A stretch of DNA of 64,000 bases from an uncultured Microbacterium sp. (lineage in GTDB: Bacteria; Actinomycetota; Actinomycetes; Actinomycetales; Microbacteriaceae). The DNA is taken from the NCBI RefSeq assembly GCF_900078385.1, contig NZ_FLQR01000010.1, positions 1-64,000 on the forward strand, read 5' to 3'. Shown here in pieces: positions 30,420 through 33,398 of this stretch; position 1 is the stretch's first letter; every line of letters starts with the position of its first letter. The translations under genes and the position numbers were made by a program. Below the pieces are notes generated by a model that was given only the letters and a program-made list of their open reading frames with translations, made no database searches and had not been told where the DNA came from.

Positions 30420-30986
30420 TCAGTCCCCGAGCACGTCCCACTGCTGGGGTTCGCGGTCGTCGCGGGGGAGGAGCCCCGCGATCCAGCCGTCGTCGCGGCG
30501 GCCGGCGCCGTTGGCGAGGGCCGCGCGGATGAGCCCCTCGTACCGGAAGCCGAGGGTGCGGGCGGCCCGCGCCGAGGCGGTGTTGCCGACGACGGCCCGC
30601 CACTCGATGCGCGCGAGGCCGAGGCCGTCGGTCGAGAACCCCCAGTCGACGACGGCCCGGCACGCCTCGGTGAGGAGGCCCTTCTTGCGGTAGGCGGAGG
30701 CCATCCAGTAGCCGATCTCGGCGTCGCCGCGCCCGAGGTGGTGCAGGCCCACCATCCCGGTCAGGGCGCCGTTCAGCCGGATCGCCCAGGTCGCCTCCGA
30801 GCCGGACTCCCACCACTGCGCGCTCTTGGCCACGAAGCCGACGGCGTGCTCGCGCTCGTACGGCTGGGGCACCGTCGTGTACCGCTGGATGTCGCGGTCC
30901 TGGCAGGCCCCGAAGATGGCGTCGACGTCGGCATCGGTCGGCGGGGAGAGTACGAGTCGCGCCGTGGTCAGCGTCACCGGTTCCAT
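30420..30986 (-). CDS. GNAT family N-acetyltransferase (RimJ/RimL-like)
   Basis: LTTARLVLSPPTDADVDAIFGACQD ... IEWRAVVGNTASARAARTLGFRYEGLIRAA. Confidence 0.88.
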   Translation of the reverse strand: MEPVTLTTARLVLSPPTDADVDAIFGACQDRDIQRYTTVPQPYEREHAVGFVAKSAQWWESGSEATWAIRLNGALTGMVGLHHLGRGDAEIGYWMASAYRKKGLLTEACRAVVDWGFSTDGLGLARIEWRAVVGNTASARAARTLGFRYEGLIRAALANGAGRRDDGWIAGLLPRDDREPQQWDVLGD

Positions 30987-31010: not shown

Positions 31011-31087
31011 GCGCCGCAACTCCGCCTTGACGGGTTCGCGGTCGTCGTGTCGCGTCCATGCCCCCCGCATCGGCGGAGTTGTTGCAC
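31011..31087. repeat. Family-2 palindromic element a
   Basis: GCGCCGCAACTCCGCC [45 nt] GGCGGAGTTGTTGCAC. Confidence 0.85.
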
Positions 31088-31159
31088 GAGTGCACGGCGT
31101 GACACGGTCCCTTCCCGCCCGCCCGCGCGCACGCGGGCGGAGCCCCGCGACCCCCTCGC

Positions 31160-31236
31160 GTGCCACAACTCCGCCTCCGCGGCCACCGGCCCGGACGAAC
31201 GACCGGAATCGGCGCTGTGAGGCGGAGTCACGGCAC
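31160..31236. repeat. Family-2 palindromic element b
   Basis: GTGCCACAACTCCGCC [45 nt] GGCGGAGTCACGGCAC. Confidence 0.85.
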
Positions 31237-31357
31237 AGGTCCGGCGGCCGGATCGTGCCGGGCGCCGCCTCCTCCCCATCCGGACGGGCCGTCCTCGCTC
31301 TCCCCGGATCGTGACCCCGGTGTCCATCGGGCCGGGCGGTCCGGCCACCGTGTCCGG

Positions 31358-32221
31358 ATGATCGGCCCTTACGACTTCGCCACTCGCGCCGACCTCGTCG
31401 CCGCGGGCTTCTCCCGCCGGACGCTCGCTGCGGCGCTCACCAGCGGACACATCGTCCGCGCCCGGCGCGACAGGTACCTGACGGCATCGGCCCCGCCCGC
31501 GCTCCTGGAGGCGGTGCGCGTGGGCGGCCGGCTGACCTGCCTCAGTCTGCTGCAGCTGCTCGGCGTCTTCGTCCACACGAACACGGTCACCCACGTACAC
31601 GTCGTCCGCGGCGCGAGCCGGTTGCGCTCAGCGACGAATCCGGCCCGACCGCTCGAAGCGCGCCGGATTCGCGCGAGCCGGGTCCACTGGATGCCGCTCA
31701 TCCGATCGGACCGCGGGCACAGCGCGTGCGTCGACATCGTCGACGCGCTCGTGCACGCCGTGCGATGCCAGCCGGCGCGCTACGCGGTGGCATCCCTCGA
31801 CAGTGCCCTCCACTTGAGGCTCATCGGCGAGGTCGAGATCGCCGAGATCTTCGCGGCGCTGCCGCGCAGATTCGCGGTACTCCGCAGACTCGTCGACGGG
31901 CGGGCGGAGTCCGGCACGGAGACCCTCGTGCGACTGATCGCCCGCTCGCTCGGCTGCCGGGTCGAGCTCCAGGTCTTCTTCGAGGGCGTGGGCCGCGTCG
32001 ACCTGGTCATCGACGGGTGGCTCGTCGTCGAGTGCGACAGCAAGGAGTTCCACGAGTCCTGGGCGCAGCAGGTCAAGGACCGCGCACGCGACGCCGCCTT
32101 GGCCGCGCGGGGCTGCACGTCGTTGCGGTTCACTGCCGCGCAGGTCCTCTACCGGCCCGAGGAGGTCGTCGCCGCGTTGCGCGGACTCAGCTCCGCGCAC
32201 CGCCGCTGCCGGGTGTCCTGA
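31358..32221 (+). CDS. Orphan AbiEi-antitoxin-N-like / DUF559 (Vsr-like endonuclease fold) domain protein
   Basis: N-terminal FATRADLVAAGFSRRTLAAALTSGHIVRARRDRYLTA (AbiEi-like wHTH); C-terminal GRVDLVIDGWLVVECDSKEFHES...RDAALAARGCTSLRFTAAQVLYRPEEVVAAL (DUF559 nuclease-fold pattern). Confidence 0.75.
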   Translation: MIGPYDFATRADLVAAGFSRRTLAAALTSGHIVRARRDRYLTASAPPALLEAVRVGGRLTCLSLLQLLGVFVHTNTVTHVHVVRGASRLRSATNPARPLEARRIRASRVHWMPLIRSDRGHSACVDIVDALVHAVRCQPARYAVASLDSALHLRLIGEVEIAEIFAALPRRFAVLRRLVDGRAESGTETLVRLIARSLGCRVELQVFFEGVGRVDLVIDGWLVVECDSKEFHESWAQQVKDRARDAALAARGCTSLRFTAAQVLYRPEEVVAALRGLSSAHRRCRVS

Positions 32222-32255
32222 GTCCCCCCGTTTCGCCGCACGCGGACGGGCGGAC

Positions 32256-32333
32256 GTCCACCAACTCCGCCAGCGCCCAGGCGCATCGGCCGCCGCGAGT
32301 GGCCGGACGCCCGCTCAGGCGGAGTTGCGGCAC
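32256..32333. repeat. Family-2 palindromic element c
   Basis: GTCCACCAACTCCGCC [46 nt] GGCGGAGTTGCGGCAC. Confidence 0.85.
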
Positions 32334-32393: not shown

Positions 32394-33398
32394 TCAGACG
32401 CGGCGGAGGAGGCCCATCTTGTCGTAGACGTCGGCGAGGGTCTTGTCGGCGACCTCGTCGGCGCGGGCGGCGTTGGCTGCGAGGACGCGGTCGAGCTCGG
32501 CGGGGTCGTCCAGCAGCTCGAGCGCGCGCCGGCGCACCGGGCCGAACTCCTCCACGACGACCTCGGCGAGACCCTTCTTGAAGTCGCCGTAGCCGCGGCC
32601 CGCGTACTCGTCCTCGATCGCCGGGATCTGCCGGCCCGTGAGGGCGGCGTAGATGACCAGCAGGTTCGACACCCCGGGCTTGGCCTCGCGGTCGTACCGC
32701 ACCGAACCCTCGGAGTCGGTCACGGCCCGCATGATCTTCTTCGCCGACAGGGCGGGGTCATCGAGCAGCCACAGGACGCCGGCATCCGACTCGGCGGACT
32801 TCGACATCTTCGCCGTCGGCAGCTGCAGGTCGTAGATGCGCGCGGTGTCCTGCTGGATGACGGGGATCGGCACCCGGAAGGCCTCGCCGTAGCGGGCGTT
32901 GAACCGCTCCGCGAGGTCGCGGGTCAGCTCGACGTGCTGCTTCTGGTCGTCGCCCACCGGCACGATGTCGCTCTGGTACAGCAGGATGTCGGCGGCCATG
33001 AGCACCGGGTAGGTGAAGAGGCCCACATTCGTGGCATCGGCGCCGTAGCGCTGCGACTTGTCCTTGAACTGCGTCATCCGCGACGCCTCGCCGAAGCCGG
33101 TGATCGTGGAGAGGATCCACGCGAGCTCGGCGTGCGCGCGGACATGCGACTGCACGTAGAGCGTCGACTTCGACGGCTCGATGCCGGCGGCGATGTACTG
33201 CGCGGCCGTGCGGCGCGTCTTCTCGCGCAGCTCCGACGGGTCGTTCGGCTGCGTCAGGGCGTGCAGGTCGACCACCGAGAAGTAGGCGTCGTAGGACTCC
33301 TGCAGGTCCCGCCACTGCATGAGCGCCCCGATGTAGTTGCCGATCTGGAGGGAATCGGCGGAGGGTTGCATACCGGAGTACAGGCGGGGTTTGCTCAC
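32394..33398 (-). CDS. trpS: Tryptophanyl-tRNA synthetase
   Basis: RLYSGMQPSADSLQIGNYIGA, KMSKSAESDAGV. Confidence 0.95.
   Translation of the reverse strand: MSKPRLYSGMQPSADSLQIGNYIGALMQWRDLQESYDAYFSVVDLHALTQPNDPSELREKTRRTAAQYIAAGIEPSKSTLYVQSHVRAHAELAWILSTITGFGEASRMTQFKDKSQRYGADATNVGLFTYPVLMAADILLYQSDIVPVGDDQKQHVELTRDLAERFNARYGEAFRVPIPVIQQDTARIYDLQLPTAKMSKSAESDAGVLWLLDDPALSAKKIMRAVTDSEGSVRYDREAKPGVSNLLVIYAALTGRQIPAIEDEYAGRGYGDFKKGLAEVVVEEFGPVRRRALELLDDPAELDRVLAANAARADEVADKTLADVYDKMGLLRRV

Follow-up and report, generated by a model that had tools for sequence, protein, structure and literature searches.

Where a lone gene is bracketed by short inverted repeats, it can be asked whether the repeats merely lie beside the gene or belong to the protein that it encodes. 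This question is raised by a 64-kb stretch of a Microbacterium genome (referred to here as the window), in which three such elements surround an orphan gene. A sequence-only reading of the window had likened the arrangement to the REP elements that flank RAYT genes, and had suggested a nuclease, not a RAYT, with palindromic elements of its own. As checks, it had named the presence of elements elsewhere, the co-occurrence of elements and nuclease, and agreement between the lineages of the arms and of the DUF559 protein.

Elements and Gene in the Window

Re-examination of the window confirmed that a single orphan gene is bracketed by elements a, b, and c (Table 1), with coordinates, arms, and spacings exactly as first read. 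The arms follow the consensus GTGCCRCAACTCCGCC / GGCGGAGTTGYGGCAC, in which the second arm is the complement of the first, and they match it at 15 and 15 (a), 16 and 14 (b), and 13 and 16 (c) of the 16 positions. The 64-kb window has exactly five copies of CAACTCCGCC, every one of them inside one of the three elements. The 3′ end of element b is 121 bp upstream of the nuclease ATG. Element c lies between the end of the nuclease gene and the end of trpS, where two other genomes (G188 and G081) likewise carry an element. The genes around the nuclease are those for a GNAT acetyltransferase, a mutM-like protein, and TrpS.

Table 1. Positions of the gene, its domains, its neighbors, and the three elements in the window.
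Feature	Position	Strand	Description
GNAT acetyltransferase	30420..30986	-	conserved neighbor of orthologues
Element a	31011..31087	.	arms GCGCCGCAACTCCGCC / GGCGGAGTTGTTGCAC; 45 nt between 16-nt arms
Element b	31160..31236	.	arms GTGCCACAACTCCGCC / GGCGGAGTCACGGCAC; 45 nt between arms
Orphan gene, 287 aa	31358..32221	+	AbiEi-like winged-HTH N-terminus and Vsr-like (MTES_1575/DUF559) nuclease C-terminus
N-terminal half, residues 1-130	31358..31747	+	diverges in step with the arms, most strongly at residues 61-110
C-terminal nuclease domain, residues 181-287	31898..32218	+	invariant residues E188, R192, Q205, G212, V214, D215, E225, D227, H232, D241, R244
Element c	32256..32333	.	arms GTCCACCAACTCCGCC / GGCGGAGTTGCGGCAC; 46 nt between arms
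Tryptophanyl-tRNA synthetase (trpS)	32394..33398	-	conserved neighbor of orthologues

The nuclease frame is open upstream as far as a GTG at the first base of element b (31160-31357). The resulting 66-aa extension matched no Pfam family, and it is probably not translated.

The Orphan Nuclease

The 287-aa protein is matched by PF18741 (E 4e-8), PF04480 (E 5e-5), and PF13338, AbiEi_4 (E 0.0016). By the cut-offs of Pfam it falls below that of PF18741 and of AbiEi_4 and above that of PF04480. Among 28 members of the family compared, 27 match PF18741 at E 0.01 or better and 10 match AbiEi_4 at that level (best 7.7e-6). The catalytic residues E188, D215, E225, D227, and H232 are invariant over the 28 sequences, which, together with the PF18741 and PF04480 matches, bears out the DUF559/Vsr-fold C-terminus first read from the letters. 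Because every invariant acidic and histidine residue is kept, the Vsr-like domain is probably active as a nuclease, and cutting or nicking probably matters; cleavage is inferred here, without cleavage data. Relatives of Vsr type in the PDB are 3hrl (E 8e-8) and, weakly, 3r3p (E 0.11). A structure prediction from the single sequence had a mean pLDDT of 34.5 and was not used as evidence.

The absence of an AbiEii partner had also been claimed. A missed AbiEii gene was sought among the neighbors of the nuclease and none was found, nor does any other constant partner gene adjoin it; the neighbors are housekeeping genes that differ by locus.

Nuclease Relatives and Their Own Arms

The loci of 30 close homologues (52–61% identity, the window’s gene included) were scanned for inverted repeats with no arm sequence given in advance. 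An element flanks most of them on at least one side, and its arm sequence is particular to each species (for example, CGTACCGTATTCAGTCT in G018, CGTACCGTTCTCAGGA in G144, and CGTTCATAACTCCGGATG in G086). The upstream element of orthologues lies about 100–140 bp before the start of the protein match. In Microbacterium, inverted-repeat flanks are found with orthologues (52–61% identity) and with paralogues (45–52%), and the paralogues, which occupy other loci, have arms that are different again. A good part of the distant actinobacterial relatives (28–40% identity) are flanked by inverted repeats as well; L279 and L283 are among those whose upstream and downstream arms match.

Among 76 nuclease genes, 36 are preceded and 35 followed by a repeat with a score of 13 or more, whereas the 44 control genes have none upstream and one downstream (p 2e-15). 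For genes with repeats on both flanks, the arms of the same gene are more similar (11.7) than those of different genes (5.2). Chance repeats were ruled out by the counts for control genes and for reversed patterns.

Elements that adjoin the nuclease are sometimes duplicated in tandem with flanking DNA, the copies being about 170–210 bp apart (L143:2414-2719, L130, L134, and L229). In the genome G160, two strong inverted repeats of another type (scores of 20 and 16; L103:1540-1699) are found about 1.3 kb from a long-class element (see below for spacing classes).

Scattered Copies in Microbacterium Genomes

The pattern ACTCCGCC-N40-60-GGCGGAGT is found at nine places in the 3.14-Mb genome from which the window comes, and its reversed control at none. 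With two weaker intergenic pairs added (C9:296258 and C11:225300) and one chance coding match dropped, the genome possesses about ten elements, and other genomes have up to 22 or more copies. Elements are thus present elsewhere, as the first of the checks named above had it. Sites in this genome lie between housekeeping genes, including tilS/ppa, trmH-like/Nramp-like, purD, and glmS/acpS (product names read from the sequences), and one element is located in frame inside an ABC-F gene.

Scattered copies bear the arm of their own species. Coding sequence makes up 86% of the DNA, yet 35 of the 39 copies examined fall between genes. Convergent, tandem, and divergent gaps are occupied roughly in proportion to background, and since neighbor orientation is near background, promoter placement is not the rule.

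Other genomes were searched with a covariance model of the 98-bp class (elements with 68 spacer bases) and with a 98-bp pattern. The pattern is present in 19 of 32 genomes with an orthologue at the trpS locus versus 6 of 166 without one (Fisher p 2.7e-13), and the median number of covariance-model matches is 17.5 versus 1 (p 7e-15). Elements and nuclease therefore co-occur as the sequence-only reading had foreseen, with the reservation that both probes were derived from orthologue flanks, so that the test is biased towards orthologues and paralogue-linked families are missed. Some genomes without a close orthologue still yield covariance-model matches, perhaps due to paralogues. Element length is sharply defined: a pattern with 67 spacer bases is found at far fewer places than one with 68. 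Because arms vary by species, a strict genome-wide pattern applied to GTDB contigs was matched only in Microbacterium sp. oral taxon 186 and by two unrelated matches.

Arms Follow the Enzyme

A site unrelated to the nuclease locus is offered by the ABC-F gene, whose linker has an in-frame element at the same place in most species compared, with an arm sequence that differs between species. In G015, GTGCCGAGTGCAGG is found exactly both in the ABC-F linker and beside the nuclease, and the ABC-F arm also agrees with the resident nuclease in G010, G049, G052, G062, G105, G137, and G188. Over 16 genomes, the match between the ABC-F and nuclease arms of the same genome exceeded that of all 100,000 permutations (p about 1e-5). 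The ABC-F arms of G074, G119, G144, and G175 do not fit the nuclease flanks compared, perhaps because the set of paralogues compared was incomplete.

Similarity of the arms was then related to similarity of the protein. The Mantel r is 0.26 for residues 1–60, 0.35 for residues 61–110, and 0.11 for the C-terminal half; the partial correlation with the arms is 0.23 for the N-terminal half given the C-terminal half, and -0.02 for the C-terminal half. These correlations are modest and partly reflect phylogeny. Since the arms track the N-terminal half and not the nuclease half, residues 1–130 are the likely reader of arm sequence, an inference from covariation without binding data. The agreement of arm and DUF559 lineages named as a check thus holds by way of the N-terminal half, and the ABC-F site adds a match in trans.

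The ABC-F linker, in the second nucleotide-binding domain (L303-L332), is a recurrent in-frame home for several arm families; it is 32 aa long without an element and up to 63 aa long with one.

Spacing Classes and Interiors

Measured between equivalent arm positions (core to core), the elements cluster at 63, 74–76, and 84–87 bp. These classes, referred to as short, middle, and long, are about 11–12 bp apart, near one helical turn. Single loci can combine them: L142 and L154 each have one short-class and one long-class element with related arms, and L138 has one middle-class and one long-class element.

In the 98-bp class, the arms are conserved (positions 1–15), there is almost no information at positions 22–41, and a central dyad is located near CCGCGGAATTCCGCGG. 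Symmetric complementarity is mostly 0.27–0.52 at positions 16–41, and central pairing is weak only. The unrelated interiors noticed in the window are also found among 49 elements of this class from seven genomes, whose interiors, outside the central dyad, are no more alike than shuffled sequence: identity is 0.368 whether copies are compared within or between genomes, and 0.366 once shuffled; arm identity in the same elements is 0.91 within and 0.71 between genomes. The element is read as two protein sites joined by a spacer, an inference without binding data, and not as a long hairpin.

Between ppa and tilS, four species retain the arms and the 45-nt distance and do not retain the interior. 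Two comparisons of close species show interiors that have diverged further than one or both flanks: at tilS in G000 and G133, interior identity is 0.66 versus 0.96 in the left flank, and at trmH in G188 and G081 it is 0.49 versus 0.69 and 0.73 in the flanks. Few pairs enter this comparison, and constraint on the flanks is possible. Certain pairs of close species thus have interiors at least as diverged as the adjoining DNA, with element length exactly retained (L091, L101, L108, and L109 at ppa/tilS; L089, L100, and L111).

Gain and Loss

The closest relative in the set, G133, has a 91% identical ABC-F protein. Its gap between the GNAT and trpS genes is only about 160 bp, versus about 1.4 kb in the window, and the nuclease gene and all three elements are absent. 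Elements are missing as well at purD, at glmS/acpS, and at two C9 sites, and those at tilS/ppa and in the ABC-F gene are kept; in all, seven of the nine checked are lost. This joint loss of gene and elements could be coincidental. At three of four aligned empty sites in G133, a CGGCAC-like end similar to the outer arm is retained (L112, L114, and L110 versus L403, L394, and L395), possibly as an excision scar or a target preference. No target-site duplication was recognised at these four sites, where the flanks have diverged and short duplications could be missed.

Close relatives differ in whether single sites carry an element, yet the interiors of the elements share no ancestry. Near-identical copies with unrelated flanks, which would mark recent transposition as a unit, were sought and none were found. 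A single strong pair had near-identical interiors (G177, C11 and C15), but it sits in a larger 93% duplicated stretch and is therefore uninformative on transposition.

Known Systems and Alternative Explanations

The main rival to an element family maintained by the enzyme is a transcription regulator with a regulon. The protein would be an AbiEi-like autoregulator acting on paired repeats, the scattered elements would be the operators of further genes, retained by selection on host gene control, and the nuclease fold would be vestigial or serve dimerisation only. AbiEi proteins bind paired 23-bp inverted repeats in their own promoters (PMC7319586), and the present system is like them in its AbiEi_4-like winged-HTH N-terminus, its family-specific repeat sequence, and its paired inverted repeats upstream of the gene, at the above distance from the start in many species. 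Persistence at orthologous places such as ppa/tilS, with arms and length kept and interiors not, is also in its favor, and missing interior ancestry fits operators. What a regulon does not readily accommodate is the near-background mixture of convergent, tandem, and divergent sites, along with sites at gene ends and in ABC-F coding sequence, the invariance of the catalytic residues, and sets of target genes that change greatly between close relatives. A regulon remains possible, if unlikely. In comparison with AbiEi itself, the protein has an added nuclease C-terminus and no AbiEii partner, its repeats are separated by about 45–68 nt and not by 3 or 13 bp, and they also occur downstream and throughout the genome.

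A second alternative, of which we are more doubtful, is a classical REPIN-like mobile element that the nuclease, in place of a RAYT, moves as one unit. Two inverted arms of ~16 nt at a set distance, a bracketed enzyme gene, extragenic copies, and long persistence are all features of REPINs (PMC3116915). The likeness extends to the variable interior, to a lone chromosomal enzyme gene between elements of its own, and to an arm class specific to the enzyme lineage, and presence or absence at single sites would be expected of a mobile unit. However, interiors are unshared even among 15 copies compared in one genome, no recent copies of the kind sought above were found, and there is no interior complementarity beyond the arms and the short central dyad, unlike REPIN hairpins. 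The arms are not themselves REP palindromes, copies number about 10–25 and not hundreds, and the enzyme is not a Y1/HUH transposase. A RAYT elsewhere in the genome was ruled out, as Y1_Tnp (PF01797) is absent from it; 1 of 198 Microbacterium genomes is positive. The layout is REPIN/RAYT-like, but two defining features that were tested fail: there is no Y1 transposase and no extended hairpin. The sole Y1 transposase of the 198 genomes (G041:C15:20980-21342, L353) belongs to a genome without element matches in the pattern and covariance-model searches.

A type IV toxin-antitoxin or defence module with an overlooked toxin gene is suggested by the AbiEi-like N-terminus and by one plasmid homologue annotated as an AbiEi family antitoxin, but with no AbiEii or constant partner, housekeeping neighbors that vary by locus, and weak PADLOC matches, it is very improbable. 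Least plausible of all are ordinary short repeats untied to the nuclease, such as transcription terminators or nucleoid-protein sites that flank it by chance: intergenic palindromes are common and the window alone amounts to one gene and three repeats, but the idea is strongly disfavored by species-differing arms that, at an unrelated site, agree with the resident nuclease and by control genes without such flanks, and the arms are 45–68 nt apart without a T run and frequently in divergent placement.

Two further systems invite comparison. A precedent for recognition of a long target in two parts is the Vsr-fold homing enzyme I-Bth0305I, which binds nearly 60 bp as a dimer (PMC3943268), and the weak 3r3p profile match connects the present protein with Vsr-like (EDxHD) homing endonucleases. 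In contrast to these, the gene is not in an intron, its target is uninterrupted, the sites on both sides are intact, and inheritance is vertical at set loci. Miniature inverted-repeat transposable elements (MITEs) are likewise short, non-coding units with terminal inverted repeats that are present or absent at single sites. Unlike MITEs, the elements have unrelated interiors and no recognised target duplication at the aligned empty sites, and no parent transposase that shares their ends was seen in a search limited to Y1.

A Proposed Pairing of Nuclease and Cognate Elements

The explanation in which reasonable confidence is placed is that of an orphan, vertically inherited nuclease with a cognate family of two-armed palindromic elements, similar to REPINs and RAYTs in its working and homologous to neither. 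Beneath it lie direct observations, namely the elements, their bracketing of the gene, species-specific arm matching, the N-terminal link, set spacing, intergenic placement, gain or loss at single sites, and the absence of a RAYT. Binding, cutting, maintenance by the enzyme, and autoregulation are inferred, and whether the enzyme moves, rewrites, or only binds the elements has not been shown. The proposal that a nuclease, in place of a RAYT, has palindromic elements of its own is upheld by the copies, the co-occurrence, and the arm matching. That the elements are its substrates, as first suggested, is only an inference, and they are not simply copied REPIN-like mobile units, as shared interior ancestry is missing. 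That absence also counts against the favored explanation, since copy-and-paste predicts such ancestry for recent copies. It argues against recent copying of whole units and leaves either site-by-site selection (regulon or architecture) or rewriting of the arms by the enzyme.

In the favored mechanism, the AbiEi-like N-terminal half would read the arm sequence, as covariation suggests, in the way that AbiEi binds paired repeats. Two or more protomers would occupy the pair of inverted arms, whose distance is fixed, so that the interior would merely be a spacer of set length, and the Vsr-like domain would act on the bound site. Copies that bracket the gene could provide autoregulation and mark the gene as that of the matching enzyme, and scattered intergenic copies would be sites of action of the same protein. 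Most likely, the nuclease would nick or cut at elements, and repair would create, rewrite, and remove them over evolutionary time. RAYT transposases are thought to create, rewrite, and remove REPINs in a comparable way. A more specific picture, towards which there is only a slight inclination, is co-evolution of a winged-HTH-guided Vsr-like nuclease with its two-armed sites: as specificity shifts, the arms would follow through rewriting or selection of the arms alone, with interiors free, in a partnership unrelated to transposases, restriction, toxin-antitoxin systems, or homing.

Significance and Distribution

Many Microbacterium genomes encode several DUF559/MTES_1575 proteins with an AbiEi-like front end, and other actinobacteria have them as well, usually without a known role; a chromosomal nuclease of this type (DNA cutting being inferred) is common in soil actinobacteria. 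In the open-access literature searched, no description was found of DUF559 with inverted repeats, or of palindromes with Vsr nucleases in actinobacteria. The findings point to a previously undescribed protein-plus-element system that resembles REPIN/RAYT and is built from an unrelated enzyme. The cognate elements are a first concrete handle on what DUF559/MTES_1575 proteins bind, and function is testable with a short set of oligonucleotides. If the system is confirmed, the REPIN/RAYT way of life, that of a domesticated enzyme with its own palindromes, arose at least twice from unrelated enzymes. The many natural arm variants, in turn, constitute a ready-made specificity code that links about 100 nuclease residues to DNA sequence.

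One genome, G080, has a trpS-type nuclease (L338, G080:C1:337000-340300) flanked by TCCGTATTCAGTC arms. It still possesses three AACTCCGCC-type elements (C1:582433, 606560, and 960472), as do its relatives G081 and G188, and these are perhaps relics of a replaced nuclease specificity.
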